Below the pieces are notes generated by a model, which was not told where the DNA came from, did not search any database, and was given only the letters and a program-made list of their open reading frames with translations. A DNA stretch of 64,000 nt from Deltaproteobacteria bacterium RIFCSPHIGHO2_01_FULL_43_49. GTDB lineage: Bacteria > UBA10199 > SPLOWO2-01-44-7. The stretch is taken from the NCBI GenBank assembly GCA_001798075.1, contig MGRG01000008.1, forward strand, positions 372,001 through 436,000. The letters are read 5' to 3'. Positions 3,955 to 61,621 of the stretch are shown here, piece after piece (the stretch's first letter is position 1; each line of letters starts with the position of its first letter). The position numbers and the translations under genes were made by a program.

Positions 3955-6044
3955 CCGATCAGGAATATCAGCAGGTGGTTCAGGCGTTGGGAAGAAAACC
4001 CAATGAGGTGGAATTGGGGATTTTTTCTGTCATGTGGTCGGAGCACTGCTGCTATAAGAGTTCCAAGATTTATCTCAAACAATTTCCTACAAAAAGCTCT
4101 CGTGTTTTACAGGGACCGGGCGAGAATGCAGGAATCATCGATATTGGCGATGGATACGCCATTGCCTTCAAAATGGAATCACACAATCATCCGTCTTTTA
4201 TAGAACCGTATCAGGGAGCCGCAACAGGGGTTGGTGGAATTTTGCGAGATATTTTTACGATGGGGGCACGCCCGATAGCCTCTCTCAATAGCTTGCGTTT
4301 TGGCGCAATGAATCACCCGCGTACTCCGTATCTTTTGCGTGGTGTTGTAGCGGGAATCGGTGGCTATGGAAACTGCATGGGGATTCCGACCGTGGGTGGT
4401 GAGACCACTTTTGATGAATGTTACAACGGCAACATTTTGGTGAATGCGTTTACACTTGGCGTTTTGAAAAAAGATAAAATTTTTCGTGGGATTGCAAAGG
4501 GGGTTGGCAATCCTGTCATTTTGGTTGGATCGAAGACGGGGCGGGATGGGATTCATGGTGCCACGATGGCCTCCGATGTTTTTGACAAAGAATCGGAATC
4601 AAAACGTCCAACGGTTCAAGTGGGTGACCCTTTCACAGAGAAAAAATTGATGGAGGCTTGCCTGGAGGCTTTTGAATTGGAGGGTGCCATTGTGGGGATT
4701 CAAGATATGGGGGCGGCCGGTTTTACCTGCTCTAGTTTTGAAATGTCGGCAAAGGGTGGGGTGGGAATGGAACTGATGCTGGATAAAATTCCTTTGCGGG
4801 AAACAGGAATGACTCCTTATGAAATTATGCTCTCCGAATCACAAGAGCGAATGCTTTTGATCGCACAAAAAGGGAGAGAAGAAGATTTAAGAAAAATTTT
4901 CGAAAAATGGGAGTTGGAGTTTGCGATTGTGGGGGAAGTGATCGCAGAAAAAAGAGTCAAAGGATACTTTCATGGAGAATTGGCGTTTGATTTGCCAGTA
5001 GAACCGGTTACCGATGCAGCACCGGTGTATGAGAGGCCCGTAGAAGTGCCAGGTACTAGGTTCCAGGTACCAAGTACTTCGAACCTCGAATCTCGAACCT
5101 CGGACAATTACAATGATATCCTTTTAAAACTTTTGTCCTCCCCCAACCTTTGCTCCAAAGAGTGGGTGTGGCGTCAATATGACAAGACAGTTGGAACGAA
5201 TACACTGCTTGCCTCTGGGGCTGATGCAGCCGTGGTGCGAATTAAAGAAAATGGAAAAGCGATTGCGATGAGCGTCGATGGAAAAGCCAAGGATTGTTAT
5301 TTGAATCCTTATCTGGGTGCTGTTGAAACGGTGGCCGAGGCCGCCCGCAATCTCGTTTGTGTTGGGGCAAAGCCGGTTGGTGTGAGCGATTGCCTCAATT
5401 TTGGAAATCCAGAAAACCCAGAAATAATGTGGGAGTTTAAAGAAGTTTGCCGTGGGCTTACTGATGCTTGCAAAAAATTTGAAACTCCTATCGTGGGCGG
5501 TAACGTCAGTTTTTATAATGAGACAGAGGGAAAAAACATTTACCCCACACCAATCGTTGCGATGGTCGGTTTGTTAGAAAAAGGTGTAACCCCCATGACA
5601 CCTTGGTGGAAACAAAATGGAGATATCATTTATTTGATAGGAGAAAATAACGATCAGCCATTTGATTTCGAACAAGAACTCGCTGTCCAAGGCCTATGTC
5701 TAGAGGCCTTTCAGAAAGGCCTTTTGCAGTCTGCCCATGATGTAAGCGAAGGTGGCTTGGCCGTCACCCTTGCCGAATGTTGTTTCGGCAAAAACTCTCT
5801 GGGAGCAACAGTCGATGTGAATGATGGCTTGGCACCCGAGGCAATTTTATTTGGCGAAGCGCCGTCAAGAATTGTAGTTAGTTTGAAACCAGAAAACGAA
5901 AAGGAATTTGTTGCGTTAGTCAAAAATGGTGTTACTTCTCCAACGCTGATAGGAAAAGTTGGCGGCAATAAACTCAAAATTAATGATTGGGTTGATGAAA
6001 GCATCGATAAATTATGGAAAGGGTGGGTGACAGCGTTGGGATAA
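3942..6044 (+). CDS. purL: FGAM synthase large subunit PurL (short form)
   Basis: The ATP-dependent synthetase subunit, working with PurS and PurQ. At 700 residues it is the short Bacillus-type PurL, with the N-terminal [15 protein letters not shown], the [19 protein letters not shown] nucleotide loop near residue 85, and GGNVSFYNE in the second half. Two oddities are visible. Residues about 365-388 ([19 protein letters not shown]) are encoded by low-complexity repeats and look like an in-frame insertion between the two halves. The last residues (WVTALG) and the stop codon lie within a palindromic element at 6021-6069, so the original C-terminus was probably different. Confidence 0.97.
5049..5105. 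repeat. In-frame simple-repeat insertion in purL
   Basis: A block of related words, GGTACTAGG, CCAGGTACC and AAGTAC, is followed by a 14-bp unit CGAACCTCGAATCT repeated almost twice. It falls in the linker between the two synthetase halves of PurL. The same 14-bp unit (CGAACCTCGAACCC) occurs in purH at 22937-22970. Confidence 0.7.
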
Positions 6045-57191: not shown

Positions 57192-58520
<1,329 letters not shown>

Positions 58521-58523
58521 TTT

Positions 58524-59711
58524 TTAGTGACATTCCCCGTTTACACATTGGCCGGAACAAGTCGTGACAGAGAATGTCTGTGTGCCATCAGGCTGACAGT
58601 TTAGTTGATACAATTGTTGTCCTTCACAATAATCACCACCACCTTGGACCATTGGGTTATTATTAGGATCGGTGTCTATGCAGATATTGGGAGAATCTCT
58701 GCAGGCACCGTCCTGGCAAAGTTGACCTGCTCCACAAGGTAATTTTTCACTAAATGGAGTTTTATCAGGTTTGCAGAAGTATTCATGGACAAATAGTCCG
58801 TCAGCGCTGCAATGATCCGTAGAAGAAAAGGTTGCCCCACTTCCATTTTTACCACTGACTGTTCCGGCTGTGTTTTTATCAAGCCCATCGGTGTCCGTGC
58901 AGCTTATTTCTGGTGGTGAGCCAGGTTGGCAAGCACCATCTTTGCAAATTTCTCCTGTCGGGCACGCAAGATATTTTACTTTTATTGCTGATGTGCCATC
59001 ACAATATGCTTCCAAAACATATATACCTCTTGGATCACAACCGTCTTTTCCAGTTTGAACACCGCCATTAGCATTTTGCTTTGTCACAGTGCCCGCAACA
59101 CTTGCGTTGTCTCCTCCATCTGAATCCGTACATGTTGGCTCTTGCAGTGTTCCTGATTGACAAGCATGCTCGCCCTGTTTGCAAATGTGTCCTTCTCCAC
59201 ATGGAGTTGAAATAAATTGAGGCAAATTATTAGAGTCACAAATTGTCTCAATGACATAGCGTCCATCTGATGAACAAGTATCCCAAGCTCTAAAGGAATT
59301 TCCATTGCTACTATATGTTCCACTGACAGAGCCGGCTATCGTTGGATCATTTGATTGGTCCGAGTCGGTGCAAGACGGTTGGGGTTGAGTCGTCCCCGAA
59401 CCTGGAGTAATTTGTGGGAGTTTAGGTTGAGAGGCAGGCTGGATTGTAAATGTTGTAGTCTTGCATGGGGCACATTTGCCTCCGCAATCAATTCCTGTTT
59501 CTCCAAAATCTTTTTTCCCATTTTTGCAGGTTAAGGGCACGGAGATAGATGGGGTTATGGTCGTGATCGTTGGTTTAACCGTTACTGTTCCCATTGTTGT
59601 TGTGCTGGTTTGAGTCTTTGTCGTTCTCCATTGAGCTGAGAGTAAAGTAGGATGGAGTGCTAGTGGTAAAAGGAGGGATGTCGTCAGGTAAAAGAGGTGT
59701 CTCTTGTTCAT
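58524..59711 (-). CDS. Secreted Cys-rich repeat protein
   Basis: The 395-residue protein has a signal peptide (MNKRHLFYLTTSLLLPLALHPTLLSA), a Thr-rich stretch, a CKNGKKDFGETGIDCGG...CAPC motif near residue 62, and four repeats of about 75 residues. Each runs CTDSDGG, AGTV/AGSV, a C..DG/RYV.E segment, then PCGEGHICKQG..C. The repeats resemble Cys-rich extracellular modules seen in many environmental genomes. Likely surface-exposed or secreted; ligand unknown. Confidence 0.8.
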   Translation of the reverse strand: MNKRHLFYLTTSLLLPLALHPTLLSAQWRTTKTQTSTTTMGTVTVKPTITTITPSISVPLTCKNGKKDFGETGIDCGGKCAPCKTTTFTIQPASQPKLPQITPGSGTTQPQPSCTDSDQSNDPTIAGSVSGTYSSNGNSFRAWDTCSSDGRYVIETICDSNNLPQFISTPCGEGHICKQGEHACQSGTLQEPTCTDSDGGDNASVAGTVTKQNANGGVQTGKDGCDPRGIYVLEAYCDGTSAIKVKYLACPTGEICKDGACQPGSPPEISCTDTDGLDKNTAGTVSGKNGSGATFSSTDHCSADGLFVHEYFCKPDKTPFSEKLPCGAGQLCQDGACRDSPNICIDTDPNNNPMVQGGGDYCEGQQLYQLNCQPDGTQTFSVTTCSGQCVNGECH

Positions 59712-59832: not shown

Positions 59833-59865
59833 GTCAAAAATATGACGATCCTTATACGTCCCTTT
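59833..59865 (+). repeat. Left direct repeat containing a rimI start fragment
   Basis: GTCAAAAATATGACGATCCT... through ACGTCCCTTT matches 61166-61198 at 30 of 33 positions. ATG at 59842 opens the same MTILIRPF as rimI, but the frame then diverges and stops after 26 codons. It is therefore a 5' remnant of rimI on the far side of the ATPase gene. Confidence 0.8.
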
Positions 59866-59913
59866 AAATTCAGGGGTAGCAATTTTCCCCTGATTTGGTT
59901 GCGTAAAATAGCT

Positions 59914-59946
59914 TTGACATAACCCATTTTATGCGTAAAATGGGTT
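59914..59946 (+). promoter_or_regulatory. Promoter with overlapping operator for the AAA_14 ATPase gene
   Basis: TTGACA (59914-59919), 16 bp, TAAAAT (59936-59941). Perfect inverted repeats AACCCATTTTA and TAAAATGGGTT (59921-59931, 59936-59946) fill the spacer and -10 box. The expected transcript start coincides with the ATG at 59950, suggesting a leaderless mRNA under repression. A further half-site GCGTAAAAT lies at 59901. Confidence 0.65.
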
Positions 59947-59949
59947 ACT

Positions 59950-61158
59950 ATGAAACCATTTCACGAACAGTTTCGAACGGTCCAATACTATTGGACAGAC
60001 CCCCACTGGCTAAGCCACCGCATGTTATTTCTTTCCGGTCCCAGACAGGTTGGGAAGACAACGTTGGTGACTTCCACATTGTGCACAAAGCAAGAGGCTT
60101 ACTTTAACTGGGATAGTAGAAAAGTGCGCATGCTTTATCACAAGGATCCGGAGTTCATCGCCAACACCGATTCGGAATGGATCTGCTTTGATGAAGTACA
60201 CAAAAGACCGAAATGGAAAGATATTTTAAAGGGGATCTATGATGTCTACAAAGGCAGATATCATTTTGTCATTACAGGGAGTGCCAAACTTGAAACATTC
60301 CGCAGAAGCGGCGATTCTTTGGTGGGTCGTTATTTTCACACACGATTATTTCCTCTCAATCTTCCCGATTTCGCAAAAACTGATTTTACTCTTCCCAAAA
60401 ATCCGGAAGAGTTGGCGCGCCAAGCTGCCGAAGGGAAAGAGATGGGTGAACTGGAAAGTTTATTGCAATTGGGAGGTTTTCCGGAACCTTATTTTTCCAG
60501 TTCGGAACAATTCTGGAAACGCTGGGCTGTCAATCATCTCGACTTGATCATACGAGAGGATTTAAAAGATTTAACAAAAGTTGTGGAAATAGACAAAATC
60601 GAGCATCTGCTGGAAATTATAAAACCATCGATTGGTCAGACTATTAGCTACAGGCATTTGGGACAGGATTTGGAAACAACACATGGAAGCATTAAGAGAT
60701 GGCTGGAAATTTTAAACAGACTTCAGGTTCTGTTTCCCATCGCCCCCTATTTTAAAAAAATCAGACGGGCCTATCGGCAGGAACGAAAATGGTATTATGT
60801 TGATTGGCGCATCGCTGAGGAGAAACGTTTTGAAAATTATATTGCAGCTTCTTTGTTAAGAGCCGTTACTCTTTATTCGGACCGTTTTGGAGAAGCCATG
60901 TCGCTCCACTTTGTGCGTACACACGACGGTGCTGAAGTTGATTTTCTACTCTGCCGTGATAATAAACCTTGGTTACTCATAGAGGCGAAAGAAGGGTCTC
61001 CAGACATTACTTCCTCAGTCCATCGCTTTAGCCGCGAATTGAATGTCCCCTGTTTTATTGTGACACGGAAAAAAAACATATTTAAACAAATCAAGGGAAA
61101 GGAAGGACAAAAAATCTTCTGTATTTCATGGGGGAAGTTAGGGCCTTTGCTGCCTTAA
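59950..61158 (+). CDS. AAA_14 / DUF4143 ATPase, mobile
   Basis: The 402-residue protein has Walker A GPRQVGKTTL near residue 31, a Walker B-type WICFDEVHKRPKW near 76, and the sensor region FVITGSAKLE. The C-terminal DUF4143 half shows AEVDFLLCRDNKPWLLIEAKE, a PD-(D/E)XK-like pattern (Asp, Glu-x-Lys). Such genes are common, patchily distributed, and of unclear function; a restriction or selfish role is possible. It is flanked by 33-bp direct repeats holding the rimI start, which marks a recent insertion. Confidence 0.85.
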   Translation: MKPFHEQFRTVQYYWTDPHWLSHRMLFLSGPRQVGKTTLVTSTLCTKQEAYFNWDSRKVRMLYHKDPEFIANTDSEWICFDEVHKRPKWKDILKGIYDVYKGRYHFVITGSAKLETFRRSGDSLVGRYFHTRLFPLNLPDFAKTDFTLPKNPEELARQAAEGKEMGELESLLQLGGFPEPYFSSSEQFWKRWAVNHLDLIIREDLKDLTKVVEIDKIEHLLEIIKPSIGQTISYRHLGQDLETTHGSIKRWLEILNRLQVLFPIAPYFKKIRRAYRQERKWYYVDWRIAEEKRFENYIAASLLRAVTLYSDRFGEAMSLHFVRTHDGAEVDFLLCRDNKPWLLIEAKEGSPDITSSVHRFSRELNVPCFIVTRKKNIFKQIKGKEGQKIFCISWGKLGPLLP

Positions 61159-61165
61159 AATATTT

Positions 61166-61198
61166 GTCAAAAATATGACGATTCTTATACGGCCTTTT
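61166..61198 (+). repeat. Right direct repeat at the rimI start
   Basis: Second copy of the 33-bp sequence at 59833-59865 (30 of 33 identical), including the ATG (61175) and first eight codons of rimI. Confidence 0.8.
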
Positions 61199-61621
61199 GA
61201 GAGTGGCGATCTCGATTCCGTCGTTCAAATTGAAAATCAAGTTTTCACTACGCCTTGGTCCAAACAATCTTTTCTCGATTGTTCACGGTGGCCGGAGTTT
61301 TGGTTTCGGGTGGCAGAGCAAAACAAGAAGGTCGTTGGTTATTTTGTCGCACAGGTTGTTCCACCAGAGGCAGAGCTTCACAATATTGCCGTGGACCCTG
61401 CTTTTCAGAAAAAAGGCGTCGGACGCCTTTTGTTAAGTCATCTGCTGACGGAAATAAAAAAGGTTGGTGTGAAGGATGTTTTTTTACTGGTTCGCCCCTC
61501 CAACATCGCCGCTATTCATTTATATCAACAATTTGAGTTTTGTTTATTGGACAAACGCCCTCGTTATTATGAAGATACCAAAGAAGACGCGCTGATATTT
61601 TATAAAGCACTTGACACTTAG
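61175..61621 (+). CDS. rimI: Ribosomal protein N-acetyltransferase RimI-like
   Basis: GNAT acetyltransferase of 148 residues with the acetyl-CoA loop VDPAFQKKGVGRLLLSHLL near residue 73 and the C-terminal RPSNIAAIHLYQQFEF typical of RimI, which acetylates the N-terminus of ribosomal protein S18. The start and first codons fall in the right direct repeat, so the gene was restored after insertion of the ATPase. No obvious ribosome-binding site precedes the start. Confidence 0.88.
   Translation: MTILIRPFESGDLDSVVQIENQVFTTPWSKQSFLDCSRWPEFWFRVAEQNKKVVGYFVAQVVPPEAELHNIAVDPAFQKKGVGRLLLSHLLTEIKKVGVKDVFLLVRPSNIAAIHLYQQFEFCLLDKRPRYYEDTKEDALIFYKALDT

Follow-up and report, generated by a model that had tools for sequence, protein, structure and literature searches.

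A DUF4143 ATPase gene between two copies of the rimI start, with similar repeats around DUF4143, Fic and AbiE genes

An AAA_14/DUF4143 ATPase gene stands, together with its own promoter, between two copies of the first codons of rimI at a junction that is empty, by gene order, in relatives, and direct repeats of the same kind are enriched around other DUF4143 genes and recur around unrelated Fic and AbiE genes. We think it probable that these repeats arose by insertion of short linear units into staggered breaks, through an activity supplied in trans or by host repair rather than by the ATPase. Under this model, the ATPase gene would spread horizontally as a unit of one gene, comprising a promoter with its operator, the ORF and the stop, and would have entered a break at the first rimI codons; fill-in of both single-stranded ends would have duplicated the stretch between the nicks, such that the right-hand copy preserved a full start for rimI, a dead copy was left behind on the left, and both copies later diverged slightly. 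Compact units of other toxin- or defence-like genes, namely Fic genes and AbiE pairs, would have been inserted likewise, the duplicated stretch measuring 13 to about 230 bp.

The rimI locus

In the window, the 64,000-nucleotide stretch of DNA analysed here, a 33-nt direct repeat (91% identity, 1333 nt from start to start) flanks the ATPase unit (Table 1). The left copy reads GTCAAAAAT followed by ATG ACG ATC CTT ATA CGT CCC TTT, and a pattern with the three differing positions left open has exactly two sites in the window, even at 3 mismatches. The differences between the copies (ATC/ATT, CGT/CGG and CCC/CCT) are all third-position and synonymous in the rimI frame. With 3 of 33 positions differing, a fresh and exact duplication of the target is ruled out; if identical at birth, the copies have diverged since. 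Between them, neither the ORF list nor Pfam gives a transposase or integrase ORF, and terminal inverted repeats as in a classical transposon or insertion sequence are not seen; the ends of the unit, whose exact positions are uncertain by a few bp, differ from those of the other cases described below. The initial annotation, which had placed the same rimI start at both ends of a 1,333-bp segment, with rimI duplicated at its first codons but intact downstream and with long direct repeats unaccompanied by a transposase or integrase gene, is confirmed on each of these points.

Table 1. Features of the eno-rimI region, in window coordinates
Feature	Position	Strand	Details
eno	57216..58520	+	directly upstream of rimI in relatives without the insertion
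Left copy of duplicated target	59833..59865	+	remnant of rimI 5' end; 30/33 identical to right copy
Inserted unit, ~1.3 kb	59866..61165	+	sequence between the copies: promoter, operator-like palindrome, one ORF, 7 bp past stop; same layout elsewhere
Promoter-like hexamers	59914..59941	+	TTGACA 59914-59919, TAAAAT 59936-59941, spacing 16 bp; conserved in most orthologs
Palindrome overlapping promoter	59920..59947	.	TAACCCATTTTA-TGCG-TAAAATGGGTTA; in all 64-69% identical orthologs and Candidatus Peribacteria L137
AAA_14/DUF4143 ATPase-nuclease gene	59950..61158	+	402 aa; AAA_14 1e-24, DUF4143 2e-20
Right copy of duplicated target	61166..61198	+	functional rimI 5' end
rimI, insertion target	61175..61621	+	intact, 148 aa; TIGR01575 2.8e-38

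In three genomes of the same family (G002, G003 and G005; loci L022, L024 and L023), eno is followed directly by rimI. This is the empty site, at the level of gene order rather than base by base, and it answers the proposal in the initial annotation that an empty rimI locus be sought in relatives; a nearly identical pair of strains with and without the ATPase unit was not found, so the empty site is defined by gene order. In a further genome (G004) a different AAA_14 gene lies upstream of rimI on the opposite strand, from which it follows that the eno-rimI junction has been hit at least twice. Between eno and the left rimI copy, the window also carries a 395-aa ORF (58524-59711, minus strand) with a secreted-looking, cysteine-rich product and no Pfam match. 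This ORF is missing from the junction in the relatives and is a second insertion there.

Short tandem duplications do occur, and some of the repeats in the survey described below are dispersed (L242), but it is very improbable that the repeat at rimI is unrelated to the ATPase and reflects either tandem duplication confined to the rimI start or chance: the number of matches to the repeat pattern expected from shuffled sequence is zero, and here, as at many other loci, repeat copies border the ATPase unit and not neighbour ORFs.

Repeats around DUF4143, Fic and AbiE genes

Repeats were sought between the 220 bp before each gene and the 60 bp after it, on the coding strand, with a repeat score of at least 13. 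In this exploratory survey, for which thresholds and windows were set during the work and which covers mostly draft assemblies with mechanically assigned start codons, 13 of 126 DUF4143 genes in this class (the window included) have flanking repeats; the corresponding figures are 5 of 388 for neighbour ORFs (p 1.9e-5) and 0.24% for shuffled pairings (p 2.6e-15), and one of the five "control" matches is itself a DUF4143 gene (L152, 23/23). An independent sample from Patescibacteria gave 8/76 against 0.1% (p 1.5e-11). The borders of other AAA_14/DUF4143 genes, which the initial annotation had suggested inspecting, carry the same kind of scar in both samples. With wide windows (up to 900 and 700 bp, repeat score at least 19), repeats of up to 232 bp were found at 17/77 (22%) of the Patescibacteria DUF4143 genes versus 1/85 of the other ORFs in these loci, a few of the repeats listed in the survey being dispersed or of low complexity (L242, L261_3, L269_3). 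L242 was rejected as a target duplication because copies of its 78-bp repeat are scattered through a pilin array, and clean empty sites for L242 and L338 were not found within their families. Gapped local alignment of the flanks was dropped as a repeat test because it was too noisy.

Across loci, the copies measure 13 to about 230 bp, and the units have no terminal sequence in common. The distance from the end of the left copy to the ATG is mostly 38-84 bp, and the start of the right copy mostly falls between -11 and +21 relative to the stop; these borders track the transcription unit from promoter to stop and may partly reflect the search windows, the wide windows having given mostly the same left borders. 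Within the class, L145 (44/46) duplicates a gene 3' end, L111 (27/28) the 3' end of an epimerase gene and L144 (28/29) the 3' end of a helicase-like gene, which is present in a single copy in G002 with homology beginning exactly at the repeat; L153, L105, L057 and L099 are further cases with flanking repeats. The lexA 5' end (L285) and tRNAs (L264, L322) are also among the duplicated targets, and since the duplications are often of a gene end or a tRNA, the target stays intact. Most DUF4143 genes, about 80-90%, have no repeat; insertion age may be the reason, for these genes as for repeat-free orthologs.

In a tally over the better-supported genes, duplicated gene ends show roughly 28 synonymous to 27 other differences, and a synonymous share of about half is as expected if one copy is under selection and the other drifts. 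This share bears on a different account of the window locus, in which DNA was taken up from a donor with the ATPase already beside rimI, recombination within rimI forming the right junction and an illegitimate join the left one, so that the left copy is the host's own rimI start. A copy from a related genome would fit the differences at rimI (3/3 synonymous) and at L274 (5/5), and a different AAA_14 gene also lies upstream of rimI in G004. The left copy, moreover, runs on into AAATTCAGG, which resembles the G004 rimI; the same bases form one arm of a hairpin, so no conclusion can be drawn from this resemblance. We nevertheless regard the account as unlikely: for every case a donor would have to be supposed in which the unit already adjoined that same gene, many of the repeats, located in unrelated genes and tRNAs, match almost perfectly (56/56, 67/68 and 44/46), and the overall synonymous share is explained by plain duplication and drift.

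The first Fic case appeared as a match among the control ORFs (L257, 67/68). Among 70 further Patescibacteria Fic loci, the short window gave repeats at 2 of 18 in genomes with a DUF4143 gene and at 4 of 52 in genomes without a detected one, the copy extending into the predicted ORF in one of these four (L333); wide windows gave 10/69 (14.5%). One Fic locus (L346) repeats the rimI pattern, with the duplication at the start of the downstream gene, and another (L322) duplicates a tRNA start. Among 30 AbiEii toxin genes, 5 had repeats in the wide windows (6 in a second comparison). The left copies of the five lie 629-868 bp upstream, which is where a pair of copies bracketing the two-gene AbiE unit should place them.

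Scars of identical kind around three unrelated families make it unlikely that the DUF4143 protein is the sole agent, and the ATPase is probably a passenger of the insertion process. The initial annotation had suggested that the ATPase may itself promote mobility, which would mean that the AAA_14/DUF4143 ATPase with its PD-(D/E)XK nuclease cuts the target with a long stagger and inserts its own gene. Several observations point this way: the Walker A (GPRQVGKT, residues 30-37), Walker B (ICFDE, 78-82) and nuclease-like residues (D331, E345, K347) are intact in the orthologs, the units are single genes with tight borders, repeats are strongly enriched around the family, and the first three Fic cases in the short window all came from DUF4143-bearing genomes. 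Set against these, scars of this kind are about as frequent around Fic and AbiE units, the Fic scars extend to genomes without a detected DUF4143 gene, and the units have no shared ends, which leaves self-mobilization quite improbable. In incomplete genomes without a detected copy, an undetected DUF4143 gene may act in trans.

Other arrangements were seen at individual DUF4143 loci. In the same genome as the window, 42-nt copies at L053 (G000:C5:171500-177500; 2347-2388 and 4834-4875) enclose a 378-aa gene and an ATPase gene, the ATPase ORF terminating with a duplicate of the final codons of an acyl-CoA dehydrogenase gene (LGEDITGIAAYK plus stop). At L051 (G000:C8:443500-448500), a DUF4143 gene in the dnaK-dnaJ region is surrounded by interleaved repeats, of 59 bp (85%) and of 22 bp (95%), an arrangement that suggests several nested insertions. 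At L389 (G186:C7), a 50-78-bp repeat occurs at 1598, 2805, 4147 and 6192, between pilin genes and two DUF4143 genes, resembling a cassette array.

Relation to known insertions

The primary descriptions of insertion with long target duplication are reportedly those of Nobusato et al. 2000 and Furuta et al. 2010. In the excerpts available from later articles, such insertion is said to have been described in 2000 for restriction-modification genes in two Helicobacter pylori genomes (PMC1643837, citing Nobusato 2000), with target duplications that are variable and of the order of 100 bp (PMC3874152, PMC3031569); the same excerpts link no known mobile element to these insertions, present the units as thought to be addictive or selfish, and give the mechanism as unknown (PMC3874152, PMC3031569, PMC1643837). 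The initial annotation made no mention of this precedent. The cases found here are alike in that an accessory unit lies between long, variable direct target repeats with no transposase. The window unit shares each of these traits, having a site that is empty in relatives by gene order, flanking target repeats, and no transposase or integrase; the duplications across loci, 13 to about 230 bp, are likewise long and variable around the order of 100 bp, with the 33 bp of the window at the short end and below the length reported for restriction-modification genes. The cargo is different, a DUF4143 ATPase, Fic or AbiE unit, restriction-modification cargo being what is usual in the literature and not a mechanistic requirement, and so are the lineages, namely Patescibacteria and an uncultured deltaproteobacterium-like class. 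Insertion sequences with long, variable target duplications, such as those of the IS1634 type, carry a transposase and terminal inverted repeats. Our cases resemble them in the duplications but differ in that neither a transposase nor terminal inverted repeats were seen.

The titles and abstracts of the papers found on DUF4143 and COG1373 contain nothing on mobility or insertion scars of the family, and no report came to light of scars of this type at units of DUF4143, Fic or AbiE. The cargo families, the lineages, the compact promoter-to-stop borders and the frequencies are new here. Through the scars, several toxin or defence families with no relation to each other are joined by a single pattern of insertion, the one originally recognized at restriction-modification genes. 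More tentatively, and with rather less than even confidence, we suggest that one transposase-free pathway might operate in multiple phyla, placing promoter-to-stop DUF4143, Fic, AbiE and restriction-modification units into staggered breaks with tens to hundreds of bp duplicated, a single dedicated enzyme or repair route serving all of them. The scars are a direct record of insertion events, in which target genes are preserved by duplication, and they open the question of mechanism to counts over thousands of genomes and to laboratory tests.

The ATPase gene, its promoter and its spread

The window protein matches the PADLOC family PDC-S01 over both the ATPase and the C-terminal domain (best 2.5e-48). 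No solved structure matches it by sequence; its AlphaFold model is weak (pLDDT 60), and the Foldseek matches are AAA+ proteins only. In the available part of its description, PDC-S01 is a phage defence candidate that fuses an ATPase to a PD-(D/E)XK domain, ranks fourth in frequency among prokaryotic defence families and has been transferred repeatedly across domains; that part neither describes insertion scars nor explains how the genes enter genomes (PMC12988326). By its profile, the window protein is thus like a candidate defence family, with a putative antiviral role.

A transcript from the predicted promoter would begin close to the ATPase ATG. The palindrome over this promoter is probably an operator, and its outer arms covary between orthologs (ACCC/GGGT, ATCC/GGAT, GACC/GGTC). 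All close orthologs carry a palindrome of the form ACCCATTTTACGCGTAAAATGGGT, which in most overlaps the promoter next to the ATG, indicating that the ATPase gene moves with its own control region. In other AAA_14 subfamilies (L001/L111/L112 and other loci), different palindromes, for example TGCAAAATAGTCTTGACTATTTTGCA-like ones, lie over the promoter ~40 bp before the start, and such subfamily-specific palindromes suggest that AAA_14 genes may be autoregulated.

At 64-69% identity, the nearest relatives of the ATPase come from other families of the class; the rimI proteins of these families, as far as they were matched, share only about 30-45% identity. A 63% identical ortholog is encoded on a Candidatus Peribacteria contig (L137; CALRGE010000001.1, 5998-7197), an apparent transfer between phyla. 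The ATPase with its palindromic promoter has thus spread between families and into Candidatus Peribacteria. The L137 ortholog, which has the same palindromic promoter, is flanked by a pilin operon on one side and a gene resembling methionyl-tRNA synthetase on the other. At the closest orthologs (L064-L069, L133-L138), no flanking repeats beyond chance were found.

In Thermus and Agrobacterium, plasmid-borne relatives form units of 1.3-1.5 kb that share about 95% identity and occupy different sites; empty Thermus sites were seen, with no clear target duplication at these plasmid units. On pTT27 of Thermus thermophilus HB27 (L209, 2001-3319), part of a CRISPR repeat lies beyond the stop codon of the ATPase unit, and in Thermus strains SG0.5JP17-16 and JL-18 the unit stands between pxpA and CRISPR repeats. 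On Agrobacterium plasmids, a 1.47-kb DUF4143 unit (~95% identical among L203, L205 and L206) occupies different plasmid sites, and its left junction resembles a tRNA T-arm.
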